Source of the DNA: Streptacidiphilus carbonis
Lineage (GTDB): Bacteria > Actinomycetota > Actinomycetes > Streptomycetales > Streptomycetaceae
Direction of reading: 5' to 3'
Assembly: GCF_000787775.1 (NCBI RefSeq)
Contig: NZ_BBPM01000019.1
Span: forward strand, 95,990 to 144,935
DNA: 48,946 bases
Positions within the stretch are counted from its first letter, which is position 1; every line of letters begins with the position of its first letter. A program made the position numbers and the translations under genes. The notes beneath the pieces were generated by a model. It did no database searches. It was not told the DNA's origin and was given only the letters and a program-made list of their open reading frames with translations. Shown here piece after piece: positions 3,727-48,946 of this stretch.

Positions 3727-3944
3727 GCGCTCACCTCGGGGTGCAGGACCAGCAGGCCGGGGGTGTGGACGGCGTAGAACGGGGCGGTGTCGTCGCTGTC
3801 GGGCAGGGCGAGGCGCACGTGCGCTTCGGGGGGCAGCTCGGCGAGTTCGGCGAGCAGGTCGGCGACGGTGGTGTCGTGCAGGCGGGCGGAGACGCGCAGC
3901 GGCGCGTAGTGGCCGGGGATGCTGGTCTGGGTCGGGGTGGTCAT
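3723..3944 (-). CDS. Small protein of unknown function (73 aa)
   Basis: The start is the ATG at 3944 that overlaps the methyltransferase stop (ATGA); its own stop overlaps the dnaN start in the same way. This double coupling is the main reason to call it real. The longer upstream extension of the frame is an Arg/Pro-rich shadow of the methyltransferase. The sequence (TVADLLAELAELPPEAHVRLALPD near the middle, then APFYAVHTPGLLVLHPE) looks like a small alpha/beta fold of the kind common in actinomycete mobile elements. No function recognised. Confidence 0.75.
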   Translation of the reverse strand: MTTPTQTSIPGHYAPLRVSARLHDTTVADLLAELAELPPEAHVRLALPDSDDTAPFYAVHTPGLLVLHPEVSA

Positions 3945-5371
3945 GCCGCAGTCCTCTCGGTGGCGGTGGCGGTGGCGGGCGGTTCGGCGATGCGGTCCAG
4001 GAGCAGGTGCAGGGCAGCGGTGGCCTGTTGCGGGACCACGCCGTTGCCCAGGGCCTTGAGCTGGGCGGAGCGGGGCAGGCCGGGGGTGTCGGTGACCCAC
4101 CCGGCCGGGAGGCCCATCAGCCATTCGACGAAGACGGGGGCGAGGCGTCCGGCTGTGTCGACGGGGACGGGGGCGGGGCGTCCGAGGGCGTGTTCCCAGC
4201 GGGCGATGGCGGCGGCGTAAGGTCCCCACGCCACACCAGGTCCGTCAGCGTCGGCGAGGTGGTGCGCGGGTGCTTGGCTGTCGCCCATCGGGAGCCCTTG
4301 GAGTCCCCAGCGATCGGCGTCGGCAGCAGCGGCAGGACTACCTGTGACAGCGGCGGCCGGAAGCCCTCGCTCGCCCGACGCCCTGGCGTTCCGGTGTCGC
4401 TGGCCCGCGGCGTCGGCAGCAGCGGGACCAGGGACTCCAGTGAGGGGCGTTCCGTCGCTCCCGGGCTGGCGGAGCGATTGCTTCCGTACGGTGTCGCCGT
4501 CGGGGTGGGCAGCAGGGTGCCGACCTCGGCCGCGAGGGACTTCCCGTGCGTCCCGGCCTCCTGCGATGGTGAGCGTTTGGTCTGCCGGTTCTCCCGCTCC
4601 GATGCCCTGGGGGTCGGCAGCAGGGCGACCTGTGCGCGCAGGGTGTCGTTGCGCGGGCTGTCGGCCGGGCCGGTGCCGTTGGCCTCCGAGACGGTCGGGG
4701 TCGGCAGCAGCGCCACCGTGTTCGGCAGGGCGTCCGGGTAGCCGGGGCCTTTGGAGTCGCGGGCGCGGGGAGTGGGCAGGCCAGGCCAGGACGATGACGC
4801 GGAAGCGTTCGTGGGCGCAGCCGACGGTGGCGGCGGGTAGGCCGTGCCATTCCGCATCGAGCCCGAGGGAGGCCAGGTCTCCAAGTACGGCTCCCAGTGC
4901 CCGCAGAGCAGGTTTGTCGTCGCCTTCTCCCAGGCACCACGGGCAGGGTTCCAGGTCGCTGTGGGCTGGCGCACTGAGCAGTCCCCTCACGTTCTCGATC
5001 ACGACGGCGGACGGTTGGAGTACCTCGATGGCGCGGGCCACGTGCAGCCACAGCCCGGAGCGGGTGCCCGGGGCGATGCCCGCGCGCTTGCCGGCAGATG
5101 ACACGTCCTGGCAGGGGAAGCCGGCGGTGAGCACGTCGACGGGTTCGACCTGGGTCCAGTCGACGGCGGTGATGTCGCCGTGGTTGGGCACCTCGGGCCA
5201 GTGGCGGGCCAGGATGCGGGCGGTGTACTGGTTCTTGTCGGGTCGGCCGTTGGCGTCGGGGGGTTCGTACTGGCAGTACCAGGCGGTTTCGGCGCCGAGT
5301 ACCTGTTCGGCGGCCAGGTCCAGCCCGCCGTAGCCGGAGCACAGCGACCCGAGCCGAAGCGGGGCGGCCAT
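3941..5371 (-). CDS. DNA (cytosine-5-)-methyltransferase
   Basis: This 476-aa C5-methyltransferase shows motif I (LGSLCSGYGGLDLA, 7-20), motif IV GFPCQD at 84-89 with catalytic Cys87, motif VI ENVRG at 126-130, motif VIII (HERFRVIVLAW, 187-197) and a C-terminal motif IX/X block with LKALGNGVVPQQA. A CPWC pair near 143-146 is a small insertion. Between about 200 and 375 the frame becomes a Pro/Arg/Ala-rich stretch with recurring AADP/AADA units where a target-recognition domain would be expected. In that same stretch an alternative frame has the better coding signature (see the nested ORF entry). No restriction endonuclease gene is adjacent, so self-protection or anti-restriction during conjugation is the likely role. 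The start ATG shares one base with the previous stop (TGATG), and the stop is coupled to the 73-aa gene. Confidence 0.9.
   Translation of the reverse strand: MAAPLRLGSLCSGYGGLDLAAEQVLGAETAWYCQYEPPDANGRPDKNQYTARILARHWPEVPNHGDITAVDWTQVEPVDVLTAGFPCQDVSSAGKRAGIAPGTRSGLWLHVARAIEVLQPSAVVIENVRGLLSAPAHSDLEPCPWCLGEGDDKPALRALGAVLGDLASLGLDAEWHGLPAATVGCAHERFRVIVLAWPAHSPRPRLQRPRLPGRPAEHGGAAADPDRLGGQRHRPGRQPAQRHPARTGRPAADPQGIGAGEPADQTLTIAGGRDAREVPRGRGRHPAAHPDGDTVRKQSLRQPGSDGTPLTGVPGPAAADAAGQRHRNARASGERGLPAAAVTGSPAAAADADRWGLQGLPMGDSQAPAHHLADADGPGVAWGPYAAAIARWEHALGRPAPVPVDTAGRLAPVFVEWLMGLPAGWVTDTPGLPRSAQLKALGNGVVPQQATAALHLLLDRIAEPPATATATERTAA
4117..4974 (-). CDS. Nested alternative-frame ORF with LPTP repeats (candidate overprinted gene)
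   Basis: A 285-aa frame lies entirely inside the methyltransferase gene, shifted +1. It begins with GTG at 4974, preceded by GAGGGG at a spacing of 8 nt. Its N-terminus (WEPYLETWPPSGSMRNGTAY, about 27-46) and its six (L)LPTP units, as in LLPTPRASD, resemble proteins I recall being annotated beside or within actinomycete and phage cytosine methyltransferases. From about 4720 to 4530 nearly all third positions in this frame are G/C (about 58 of 63 codons by hand), against roughly 60 percent for the methyltransferase frame. The tail after about 4220 looks like a shadow. It may be a separate protein, one half of a frameshifted product, or a by-product of conserved repeats; no function is assigned. 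Confidence 0.45.
   Translation of the reverse strand: MRQPTATWNPARGAWEKATTNLLCGHWEPYLETWPPSGSMRNGTAYPPPPSAAPTNASASSSWPGLPTPRARDSKGPGYPDALPNTVALLPTPTVSEANGTGPADSPRNDTLRAQVALLPTPRASERENRQTKRSPSQEAGTHGKSLAAEVGTLLPTPTATPYGSNRSASPGATERPSLESLVPLLPTPRASDTGTPGRRASEGFRPPLSQVVLPLLPTPIAGDSKGSRWATAKHPRTTSPTLTDLVWRGDLTPPPSPAGNTPSDAPPPSPSTQPDASPPSSSNG
4315..4782 (-). repeat. Six degenerate LPTP-encoding units inside the methyltransferase gene
   Basis: Six copies of a short motif (minus strand CTGCTGCCGACSCC and variants) lie near 4315, 4409, 4501, 4609, 4697 and 4768, spaced about 73 to 109 nt. In the nested frame they read (L)LPTP; in the methyltransferase frame they read AADP/AADA. All units keep the same phase, which a random GC-rich stretch would not do. 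Confidence 0.7.
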
Positions 5372-26725: not shown

Positions 26726-27973
26726 TCAGTCCTGGGCCTCGCCCAGCAGCTTCTGCAGTCGCGACACGCCCTCGACCAGGTCCTCGTCGCCCAGCGCGTA
26801 CGACAGCCGCAGGTATCCCGGCGTCCCGAAGGCCTCGCCGGGAACCACCGCGACCTCGGCCTCGTCCAGGACCAGCGCGGCCAGCTCCGCGGACGACTGC
26901 GGCCGCCGGCCCCGGATCTCCTTGCCCAGCAGCCCCTTCACCGACGGGTACGCGTAGAACGCGCCCTCGGGCTCGGGGCAGACCACGCCGGGGATCTCGT
27001 TGAGCATCCGCACGACGGTCTGCCGGCGGCGGTCGAAGGCCGTCTTCATCTCGTCCACGGCCGCCAGGTCGCCGGAGACCGCCGCCAGCGCCGCCACCTG
27101 CGCGACATTGCTCACGTTGGACGTCGCGTGCGACTGCAGGTTGGTCGCCGCCTTGATCACGTCCTTGGGGCCGACCATCCAGCCGACCCGCCAGCCGGTC
27201 ATCGCATAGGTCTTGGCGACCCCGTTCACCACGATGCACTTGTCCGCCAGCTCGGGCACGGCCACCGGCATCGAGACGAACTCCGCGTCCCCGTAGACCA
27301 GGTGCTCGTAGATCTCGTCGGTGAGCACCCACAGGCCGTGCTCCGCGGCCCAGCGGCCCACCGCCTCCACCTCGGCGCGGGTGTAGACGGCGCCGGTCGG
27401 GTTGGAGGGCGAGACGAACAGCAGCACCTTGGTGTTCTCGGTGCGCGCGGCCTCCAGCTGCTCCACCGTCACCTTGTAGCCGGTGGTCTCGTCGGCCACC
27501 ACCTCGACCGCGACACCGCCGGCCAGCTGGATCGACTCCGGGTAGGTGGTCCAGTACGGCGCCGGGACGACGACCTCGTCGCCCGGGTCGAGGATCGCGG
27601 CGAAGGCCTCGTAGATGGCCTGCTTGCCGCCGTTGGTCACCAGCACCTGCGAGGGCTCGACGGTCCAGCCGGAGTCCCGCAGGGTCTTCGCCGCGATGGC
27701 GGCCTTGAGCTCGGGCAGTCCGCCGGCCGGGGTGTACCGGTGGTTCTTGGGGTCGCGGCAGGCGGCCACGGCCGCGTCCACGATGTAGTCCGGCGTCGGG
27801 AAGTCGGGCTCGCCGGCGCCGAAGCCGATCACCGGGCGTCCGGCGGCCTTGAGGGCCTTGGCCTTGGCGTCGACGGCGAGGGTCGCGGACTCCGCGATGG
27901 CGCCGATACGGGCCGAGACCCGACGGTCGGCCGGACGGATGCTGGGGTCTGGGTGGGGAAACGCAGCGCTCAT
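26726..27973 (-). CDS. aspC: Pyridoxal phosphate-dependent aspartate aminotransferase (class Ib)
   Basis: A 415-aa fold-type I aminotransferase. Substrate-side [13 protein letters not shown] at about 49-61, PLP-binding TNGGKQAIY at 113-121, SPSNPTG at 188-194, [11 protein letters not shown] around 217-227, and PLP lysine Lys254 in [14 protein letters not shown]. The C-terminus is intact. It interconverts aspartate and 2-oxoglutarate with oxaloacetate and glutamate; class Ib members may also use prephenate or other substrates. Its place beside tRNA-Trp and secE is the standard Streptomyces order. Confidence 0.94.
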
Positions 27974-46577: not shown

Positions 46578-47948
46578 CTACTGCGACAGCTCCCCGTGCC
46601 CCCGCAACTGCGCGCGGTCGGCGGCAGCGCGCCCCTGGGTCCAGCCCTCGTAGTCGCTGGCTCTTATCGCCCGGCCGGCGCGGGCGTTGGGGAACATCTG
46701 CTCGGTGGAGCGGCGTACCGCCTCCTCGCGGGCGGCCAGGACCGGCAGCAGCGAGGAGGAGTCCTCGCGGCCCTCCGCGCGCAGCCCGTTCAGGGCCTCC
46801 TCGGTCGCCTGCGCGGTCGCCCCGGAGAGCCGCTCCCTGATCCGGGCCGCATAGGACAGCAGGAAGGAGTGCCGGAACGCCTTGGTCCTCGAACTCCCGG
46901 CGCCGCCGTTCTGTATCCCGGCACTGTTCATCGCGCTGGTCGCCTGCACCAGCAGCGAGGTGTACAGCAGCTCGACCGCCTCCAGGTCGGCCGGGAAGCC
47001 CACCACCGTGCAGAAGCCCAGCTCCCTGGTCCACAGCGAGGTGGCCCGGTTGGCGCCGGCAACCGCGTCCAGCAGCAGTGCCTTGGGCGCCTCGTAGGGG
47101 TTGTCCACCCCGATCCGGCAGGCCCCGGGCTCGATCCGGCTGCCCGAGGAGGCCGCCAGCAGCGCCTCGTCGATGCTGTGCTGCGCCATCAGCTGCTGCG
47201 CCTTGGCGGTCAGCGCCTCCGCCTCGTCCGGGAACCCGGTGGACTCGGCCTTGGCCAGCAGCGCCCGGATCCGGCCGAGCATCCTCGGCTCGCTCCCGGT
47301 CTTCTGCGCGAACGGCAGGGCGGACCCCTGGGCCCGCGGCACGGCCCCCGGCGGCGGTCCGAGCGGGGCCAGCCGCGGCAGTCGCCCGATCAGCCGGTAC
47401 AGCTCCAGCAGCAGGGTCGCCACCGAGAAGCGGTCCAGCCGCTCGCGCTCCGCGACTCCGGGCAGGAAGGCGTCGTCCTGGCCCCACCAGTCGGCGGCCT
47501 CCAGCTCGCGGAGCTGGCCGGCCCAGCGCGGGTCGAGGCCGGCCGCCGCGTAGCCGCGCAGCTCGGCGGCGACCAGGTCGACCGCCAGCCGCAGGTGTCG
47601 CGGCGTCAACTCGCGCCGGACCGCCCGGGCCAGGTCGGCGGGCTGCCAGCCGGACTGCCACAGCCGGGCCAGCTGCGCCGCGCTGACCAGCAGCACCGCC
47701 CGCCCGGTCTCCGGCCAGCGCGCGGCGGGCTCCGAGAGCAGGCTCGCAGCCCGGTCCAGGGCGAGGTGGTAGTCGTCCTCGGCGGCGTGCAGCACCGCGC
47801 CGCAGGCCGCCTCCACCAGCTGCCCCAGTGGGGGCTCCCCGGGCTGCGCCCGGGCGTGCTGCTGCGGGGGCTGTGCGTGCCGGGCCTGCTGGTGGGCCGT
47901 CTGGTCCCGCTTCTTGACCCGGCGGTACTGCGGGTTGCGCTTGCCCAT
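46578..47948 (-). CDS. DUF2786 protein
   Basis: ATG at 47948 with AAGGAGGG upstream gives 456 aa; the upstream frame is antisense to the next gene. After a basic Gln/His-rich start, about 35-200 is a helical domain (LGQLVEAACGAVLHAAEDDYHLALDRAASLL, LARLWQSGWQPADLARAVRREL). From about 235 the DUF2786 pattern is clear: MLGRIRALLAKAESTGFPDEAEALTAKAQQLMAQHSIDEALLA. A conserved C-terminal part follows (RATSLWTRELGFCTVVGFPADLEAVELLYTSLLVQATSAM ... SFLLSYAARIRERL). DUF2786 proteins have no established function; some phage members sit with nucleic-acid genes. It is divergent from the DUF2637 gene. Confidence 0.85.
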   Translation of the reverse strand: MGKRNPQYRRVKKRDQTAHQQARHAQPPQQHARAQPGEPPLGQLVEAACGAVLHAAEDDYHLALDRAASLLSEPAARWPETGRAVLLVSAAQLARLWQSGWQPADLARAVRRELTPRHLRLAVDLVAAELRGYAAAGLDPRWAGQLRELEAADWWGQDDAFLPGVAERERLDRFSVATLLLELYRLIGRLPRLAPLGPPPGAVPRAQGSALPFAQKTGSEPRMLGRIRALLAKAESTGFPDEAEALTAKAQQLMAQHSIDEALLAASSGSRIEPGACRIGVDNPYEAPKALLLDAVAGANRATSLWTRELGFCTVVGFPADLEAVELLYTSLLVQATSAMNSAGIQNGGAGSSRTKAFRHSFLLSYAARIRERLSGATAQATEEALNGLRAEGREDSSSLLPVLAAREEAVRRSTEQMFPNARAGRAIRASDYEGWTQGRAAADRAQLRGHGELSQ

Positions 47949-48184
47949 GACGGCCCTCCTTCTGTGTGCGGCGCCGAAGATGCCGAAGACATTGCCGACC
48001 ACCATTGTCCCGGAAGGGCGGGACCGACCCCGACGAACACGCTCCGCGACAGTGTCCCAGCAGGGTGTGACATCCCCGATCGCCTGAAGAAGCAGGGACT
48101 CCGTTGTGGCAAGCTGTCCCCCGCCCGCAGCACAACGAGACCGCCAAACCCAATTGAACGAGCAGACCCAGGGGTTGAACGAGC
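47949..48184. promoter_or_regulatory. Divergent promoter region of the DUF2786 and DUF2637 genes
   Basis: The 236-nt gap must carry both promoters. No clear -35/-10 pair or palindrome was recognised. Confidence 0.35.
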
Positions 48185-48946
48185 GATGGCAGGCCCTGCG
48201 ATAACCCGTACGCACCGCGCACTCATCGGAGTGGTCGCCGCCGGCGCCTTCATCATCGCCGGCATCGGCTTCACCGGGTCCTACGCCGCGGTGCGTGAAC
48301 TGGCCCTGCACAAGGGCTTCGGGAACTTCTCCTATGTCTTCCCGATCGGCGTGGACGTCGGCATCGCCGTCCTGCTGGCGCTGGACCTGGTGCTGACCTG
48401 GCTGCGGATCCCGTTCCCGCTGCTGCGGCAGACCGCCTGGCTGCTCACCGCGGGGACCATCGTCTTCAACGCCGCCTCCTCCTGGGGGGACCCGCTGGCG
48501 ATGGCGATGCACGCGATCATCCCGGTGCTCTTCGTGGTGGTGGTGGAGGCCGCCCGGCACGCGATCGGGCGGATCGCCGACATCAGCGCGGACCGGCACA
48601 TGGAGTCGGTGCGGCTGATGCGCTGGATCCTCTCGCCGGTGCCCACCTTCCGGCTGTGGCGGCGGATGAAGCTGTGGGAGCTGCGCTCCTACGACGACGT
48701 GGTGCGGCTGGAGCAGAACCGGCTGGTCTACCGCACCCATCTGCGGGCCAGGTACGGCCGCGGCTGGCGCCGGCAGGCGCCGATCGAGACCCTGCTGCCG
48801 CTGAAGCTGGCCAAGTACGGTGTGCCGCTGGATCTGGAGGTGATCCGCAGCGCCCCGCTGCCCGCGGCGCGGCAGGCGGAGCAGCCCGCGCAGAGCCAGC
48901 CGGTGCCCGCGCCGCAGCTCGCGCCCGGCGCGGCGCAGGACGCGCC
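48185..48946 (+). CDS. DUF2637 membrane protein, chromosomal copy (partial)
   Basis: ATG at 48185; the frame is open to the window edge (254 residues). Four membrane helices cover the first 135 residues (LIGVVAAGAFIIAGIGFTGS, YVFPIGVDVGIAVLLALDLV, TAWLLTAGTIVFNAASSW, IIPVLFVVVVEAARHAIG), followed by RLWRRMKLWELRSYDDVVRL and LRARYGRGWRRQAP, the same signature as in the mobile-element SpdB2-like protein at 12093-13103. A Pro/Gln/Ala-rich segment begins at about 220. Chromosomal DUF2637 proteins are common in Streptomyces; their job is unknown. The C-terminus is outside the window. Confidence 0.85.

Follow-up and report, generated by a model that had tools for sequence, protein, structure and literature searches.

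Overlapping genes in Streptacidiphilus carbonis that probably encode the two subunits of a C5-cytosine methyltransferase

Two overlapping genes of Streptacidiphilus carbonis probably encode cooperating alpha and beta subunits of one C5-methyltransferase, with target-recognition modules carried by beta; we put the probability of this reading at about 0.6. Frame A, the methyltransferase gene, would give the catalytic alpha chain, which holds motifs I-VIII and, in this organism, also IX and X. Frame B, nested within it, would be entered by ribosomes independently and would give beta, composed of a small N-terminal domain, whose DNA is shared with motif VIII, and six LPTP modules. The two chains would assemble into a single enzyme in which beta provides the target-recognition part that alpha lacks between motifs VIII and IX. 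From sequence comparisons we infer translation of the second protein in the cell, its assembly with alpha and target recognition by its modules; it is probably a partner subunit of the enzyme.

Long, old and doubly selected overlaps have seldom been shown in prokaryotes. The one described here runs across motif VIII in a common family of enzymes, and it occurs from Actinobacteria phages to a methanogen plasmid. The window, i.e., the whole stretch of 48,946 nucleotides that was analysed, sits in a 144,935-base contig of an 8.46-Mb genome. On the same strand as the two frames it contains genes for a Prim-Pol protein, a DNA polymerase III beta clamp, an SSB and an FtsK/SpoIIIE-like protein, a context that would fit a mobile or integrated element. 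Two further proteins of the window match PHROG families of unknown function: phrog_5879 (26726-27973, minus strand, E 3.8e-67) and phrog_421 (46578-48740, minus strand, E 7.5e-30).

Table 1. Positions of the two overlapping frames and their parts in the window
Feature	Position	Strand	Evidence or remark
Frame A, C5-cytosine methyltransferase (alpha), 476 aa	3941..5371	minus	PF00145 E 1.7e-25, phrog_363 E 9.5e-61
Frame A motif I	5353-5318	minus	
Frame A motif IV (PCQ)	5125-5102	minus	
Frame A motif VI (ENV)	4996-4988	minus	
Frame A motif VIII	4813-4781	minus	
Frame A motif IX-like	4147-4097	minus	
Frame A motif X	4063-4025	minus	pattern match
C-terminal part of A, motifs IX and X	3941..4228	minus	GC3, motif positions
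Frame B, nested overlapping gene (putative beta), 285 aa, +1 relative to A	4117..4974	minus	phrog_1008 E 8.5e-25, recoding tests
GAGGGG, presumed ribosome-binding site of B	4983..4988	minus	within V-R-G codons of A; arginine is AGG
Doubly coding part: A up to and including motif VIII, B N-terminal domain	4785..4974	minus	recoding score, four-fold sites
B LPTP module array, types C-H-B-D-G-F	4229..4780	minus	pN/pS, module typing

PF00145 aligned to residues 6-196 of frame A, and motifs I, IV (PCQ), VI (ENV), VIII and X follow one another in the order of a C5-cytosine methyltransferase; we take I, IV, VI, VIII, IX and X to be the appropriate motif names. A target-recognition region between motifs VIII and IX does not appear to lie in window A's own chain, since in loci with IX in A the A-frame pN/pS over the modules (2.02, see below) gave no sign of purifying selection.

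Frame B begins with the GTG at 4974, 8 nt from GAGGGG, and has LPTP at residues 66, 90, 119, 155, 186 and 217. An earlier account made from the letters of the DNA (hereafter the sequence-only reading) had proposed this nested frame with its GTG start, GAGGGG and six LPTP units, and its coordinates, start and repeats were confirmed. It had also placed motif VIII and the nested N-terminal segment on the same DNA, and A motif VIII does lie inside the nested part. The N-terminal domain of B contains ATWNPARGAWE and ETWPPSGSMRNGTAY; in a structure model of B, pLDDT was 84-90 at residues 1-30 and 41-50 and 72 at residues 31-40. The protein search suggested by the sequence-only reading returned many relatives, with 1629 of 7985 scored candidates reaching E 1e-3 as B homologues. 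All 54 aligned B homologues matched phrog_1008, and by these matches B belongs to an already described protein family, PHROG 1008. Within that profile, positions 71-147 corresponded to B residues 3-78 and positions 153-323 to A residues 304-463. A profile search found no PF00145 match in window B, suggesting that B is the partner frame and not the catalytic one.

The two frames carry their coding signal in different parts of the gene. Third-position GC (GC3) over 4720-4530, estimated by hand at about 92 versus 60 percent, was 0.92 in B and 0.62 in A when recomputed, and both flanks favored the methyltransferase frame as had been claimed (0.91 in A versus 0.72 in B at the A-only start of the gene, 0.83 versus 0.78 at the IX-X end). 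Per-frame selection, another check called for at the outset, was assessed on the modules. A motif-IX-like segment was present in A in 47 loci, 29 of which had LPTP modules in B (75 modules). Module pairs from loci with IX in A, at a DNA identity of 60-97% and with LPTP itself excluded, yielded, over 59 pairs and 18 loci, a pN/pS of 0.40 in B versus 2.02 in A. The contrast was larger in closer pairs, and when pairs were picked by B-protein likeness instead, the values were 0.36 and 2.15. This difference implies that in the middle region B is the protein and A a tolerant linker that mirrors B. By the same kinds of signal, A appears to be the protein at both gene ends and both frames appear to be proteins across motif VIII, and selection is seen, at the sequence level, to act on both. 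The tail of B over the C-terminal part of A, up to 4117, looks like a by-product of A.

Frame B as a whole could in principle be a passive by-product as well, a long +1 frame left open by chance in a gene of high GC whose linker is repetitive. Long frames are frequent at high GC, and 100 ORFs of at least 150 aa were listed in the window. To judge this reading we used 148 loci. Alpha-first loci came from two confirmed sets, 590 in viruses and 569 in genomes, and from each set the best 80 were used. Searches with alpha N-termini covered 199 loci, of which 183 matched; left out were 30 without a recognised ENV, two with a frameshift and three by length limits. Most of the resulting 148 loci were retrieved through the non-overlapping part of A; the set includes the window itself, L167-L170 (fetched with B), L002, L004 and L005 (from B hits), L006 (from alpha hits), and L180 and L191, same-genus loci remote from the family. 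These loci are related to one another, and their counts are of non-independent events.

For each locus the A protein was held fixed and its codons were redrawn from the same gene 200 times, and frame B was scored with a profile of 34 columns built from 63 segments of the window's own B homologues. Real B exceeded all 200 recodings in 85 of the 148 loci (median z 2.90), and at least one recoding equalled the real score in the other 63; the third frame exceeded all recodings in none. Much of the likeness of B across loci does follow from A, as recoded genes scored well above the third frame, which is the second point in favor of a by-product. In the window, the B domain scored 98.5 versus 41.8 +/- 14.1 for the recodings, a value reached by 0 of 200. 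In addition, 2000 synonymous recodings of A from each of two codon pools yielded a mean of 0.26-0.38 LPTP units and a maximum of three, compared with six in the real sequence. The B domain was retained (score >20) in 118 of the 148 loci; in the remaining 30 it was lost, changed beyond the profile or misread (in L022, for example, it is absent and modules lie in frame A). Most loci thus did not show the pattern named at the outset as a refutation, a broken B beside an intact methyltransferase. In the 22 loci with GC <50%, in-frame stops in B occurred at 1.00 per 100 codons versus 4.53 expected.

Synonymous-site constraint, which had likewise been put forward as a check, was evident but uneven. 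In 2407 pairs from the 118 loci, the four-fold sites of A differed at 0.443 inside the overlap, taken as a region, and at 0.578 upstream, and this difference never fell below 0.116 in 20 half-samples of loci. Within the overlap, values for blocks of ten residues ran from 0.162 to 0.594. At 0.590, the block leading up to and into motif VIII was no lower than upstream, and the ENVRG block was at 0.630.

B relatives also led to 546 confirmed viral loci, the best 80 of which were compared as a B-first set; three of these 80 are on contigs of query sequences and a few are near-duplicates. In 79 of these best 80 the methyltransferase overlapped B in the same relative frame (+1), and in one it was in frame; among the 79, the domains overlapped by at least 302 bases at a GC of 47-67%. 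Frame B is not a by-product of a GC-rich gene. That reading, which is now extremely improbable, is contradicted by the recoding tests, the unequal pN/pS of the two frames, the presence of B at a GC of 34-50%, the 79 overlaps of these best 80 B-first loci and a codon bias in A at the start signal of B.

This bias was found in loci with ENVRG in A. Among 69 of them, possible B starts lay at ENV+22 (24 loci, the kind seen in the window), ENV+4 (17) or ENV+61 (26), with two possible starts in six loci and none in eight. In the ENV+22 kind, a Shine-Dalgarno sequence is formed by the arginine and glycine codons of ENVRG. That arginine was encoded by AGA or AGG in 16 of 16 high-GC3 loci of the ENV+22 kind and in 1 of 38 other loci; the background of AGA/AGG among upstream arginine codons of high-GC3 loci was 9%. 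At least five Shine-Dalgarno bases preceded the start in 18 of the 26 ENV+61 loci, 14 of these with AAGGAG. At least four were present in 16 of the 17 ENV+4 loci, mostly as GGTG, which could come from valine codons instead. The codon choices thus point to a start signal of beta accommodated by the codons of A. Of the options offered by the sequence-only reading, overprinting is strongly supported by B's own start and ribosome-binding site, by constraint beyond that due to A, by these codon choices and by its occurrence in loci with a GC of 34-74%.

Another of those options was a single polypeptide made by two programmed frameshifts, from A to B after motif VIII and from B back to A before WGPYAAAI, which would put the modules inside the enzyme. 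The coding signal along the gene (A, A plus B, B, A) would agree with such a product, modules are found in A as one chain in some relatives, and the part of PMC10274946 that bears on this lists methyltransferases among genes known to contain frameshifts. B nevertheless has its own presumed ribosome-binding site and start, it stays a separate C-terminal gene in many relatives, and an A-B-A frameshift is not needed to explain the locus. We regard it as unlikely, even with a candidate programmed frameshift elsewhere in this enzyme group. The latter was observed in a related Streptomyces group and in same-genus genomes, where the methyltransferase shifts +1 directly after the catalytic PCQ (L150, L151, L152, L155-L162, L164, L172, L176 and L182, plus overlapping loci). 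TTCCC-N-TGT-CAA-A-GAC was invariant at the shift in 15 distinct sequences (19 loci, some overlapping), and the codon pair TGT-CAA occurred at 15 of 191 unshifted sites. The shift after PCQ is a candidate for programmed +1 frameshifting.

How the conserved motifs are divided between the frames varies among relatives. With classes assigned by simple patterns, the 118 loci with a B domain comprised 32 built like the window (A holding IX and X, B the modules), 28 with IX, X and modules all in B, 15 with IX and X in A and no module found, 10 with IX unrecognised, X in A and modules in B, 10 with modules in both frames and IX and X in A, five with IX and modules in B and X in A, and 18 in other or incomplete classes. 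Among the 79 overlapping loci of the B-first set (best 80 of 546), a single motif-IX pattern applied to both frames was present in B in 74 and in A in none, and a motif-X pattern was present in A in 50; 46 had IX only in B and X in A. Genes are split in Abidatro, Miramae, Catdawg and Samy. In single-chain enzymes (Ramsey, L010, L013, L022 and L047), modules lie between VIII and IX; Ramsey has a B N-terminal segment that scored weakly above recodings (p 0.02). L014 is shorter and possibly decayed: the N-terminal half of A runs in one frame into the B N-terminal domain and modules, without motif VIII. Since relatives have IX and X together in either alpha or beta, or divided between the two, the easiest reading is that the two chains work together.

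Cooperation of the chains can be questioned for the window, where A alone holds all conserved motifs and could therefore act alone. B might then be an overprinted protein with a separate task, e.g., one that regulates or inhibits the methyltransferase or host restriction, and not a subunit. A group of relatives that keeps the B N-terminal domain without a recognised module would also suit a separate task. Against it, B of many relatives has motif IX, or IX and X, absent from A, and modules of single-chain forms sit in A between VIII and IX. A separate task is accordingly rather unlikely. The group in which no LPTP module was found in B comprises Microbacterium, Leucobacter, Tessaracoccus and other Actinobacteria (L090, L092-L095, L099-L101, L106, L107, L110, L111 and L113), with the start mostly at ENV+61. 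The 15 of 118 loci with IX and X in A and no module found in B suggest that modules are not always needed in B, and in this group B may have a role independent of modules.

B of the window could also be a relic, i.e., the decaying remainder of a beta subunit without its earlier motif IX. Its end lies among the codons that encode motif IX in A, and the tail of B mirrors A, as would be expected of such a remnant. Its start, ribosome-binding site and frame are all intact, though, and B is under purifying selection on the modules of loci with IX in A. We consider decay quite unlikely and prefer an active beta subunit.

The modules of beta were characterized in 120 B homologues, which contained 556 modules of which 16 types had at least four members. 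The window has the string C-H-B-D-G-F. When anything outside the 16 types was counted as one symbol, the 120 proteins gave 110 distinct strings, with types found at many positions, and the same types occur in A of single-chain relatives. The modules thus appear, from their sequences, as coding units recurring in different orders, a pattern that looks like cassette exchange. In four of these top 120 homologues (P0009, P0013, P0040 and P0043), a LAGLIDADG-like segment precedes the SG domain as a fusion in frame B, which gives the impression of a homing endonuclease housed in the beta frame. The modules were unfolded in both models (pLDDT about 45-60 in B and mostly 29-43 in the L022 single chain), and two comparisons of B with the PDB gave no match, so that "target recognition" is proposed from their position and variability.

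The region between motifs VIII and IX serves target recognition in C5-methyltransferases, and the place of the modules there suggests the same role. Shuffled modules carried by beta would then probably choose the target, and "a target-recognition region decoded in another frame", the remaining option of the sequence-only reading, seems a good description of the likely role of B. A more far-reaching proposal, which we offer tentatively and hold to be possible but doubtful, is that the LPTP array consists of recombining, multi-specific target-recognition cassettes acting in trans from a gene overprinted on the catalytic gene, through which elements change or combine methylation specificities by shuffling. 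If true, phages and integrated elements vary specificity in one frame while a tolerant linker is kept in the other.

By its distribution, the overlap appears old and widespread. The A/B pair was found in an archaeal (methanogen) plasmid, with a locus GC of 34%, in Bacteroides, Vibrio, Paenibacillus and Microcystis phages and in Methylorubrum, all picked from B-protein matches. Annotations often retain just one of the frames or shorten beta. The beta annotated in Abidatro begins 276 bases after the conserved start, and for the archaeal plasmid alpha alone is among the entries listed in the incomplete PLSDB table. Catdawg is an exception, with the overlapping genes annotated. In Vibrio phage 1.236.O (L203, 1345-2043), the annotated gene is beta only, as a hypothetical protein, and the overlapping methyltransferase was missed. 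Should beta prove necessary, testing such phage "orphan" C5-methyltransferases by expressing one gene would end in a failure with a trivial cause, and co-expression of the two frames could reveal their recognition sites.

Among known enzymes, the one nearest to the window pair is M.EcoHK31I, also made of two polypeptides, in which beta is nested in alpha in a different frame. Likewise, window B lies wholly inside A in the other frame and appears to be under selection. As far as the portions of the sources at hand describe them, M.AquI and M.EcoHK31I are two-polypeptide C5-methyltransferases divided in the VIII-IX region (PMC3404938; for M.EcoHK31I also PMC3439449), and the larger chain of M.EcoHK31I, which has motifs I-VIII and X and the predicted target-recognition domain, is complemented by a smaller chain with motif IX (PMC3404938). 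The same arrangement, IX only in B and X in A, is that of the 46 of 79 B-first relatives (best 80 of 546). In contrast, IX and X of the window are both in alpha, its beta consists of the N-terminal domain and six LPTP modules, and target recognition is proposed to lie in beta and not, as predicted in that partial account of M.EcoHK31I, in the larger subunit. Because its IX and X are in A, the window was not filed as M.EcoHK31I-type; by analogy, its enzyme probably works like M.EcoHK31I with beta reduced to an N-terminal domain and a module array. Compared with M.AquI, the window differs in having IX-X in alpha; its two chains share 858 bases, among them those of motif VIII. PHROG 1008 itself is labelled "DNA methyltransferase", yet window B, which matches this family, is the partner frame.

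Multispecific C5-methyltransferases of Bacillus phages, reportedly treated by Trautner in 1996, have a variable region of modular build between VIII and IX, where the enzyme chain carries several recognition units. The window resembles them in having a modular variable region at this position and differs in that its modules are in the other frame, outside alpha, with putative specificity. The ShiLan phage, too, has a methylase gene with a protein encoded in an alternate frame; this gene, gp65, has 2883 bases and is longer than frame A. The section of PMC11855218 that deals with it describes an out-of-frame HNH endonuclease as a mobile insertion for which no ribosome-binding site could be detected. 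Unlike the HNH endonuclease so described, beta is no insertion and has a presumed ribosome-binding site.
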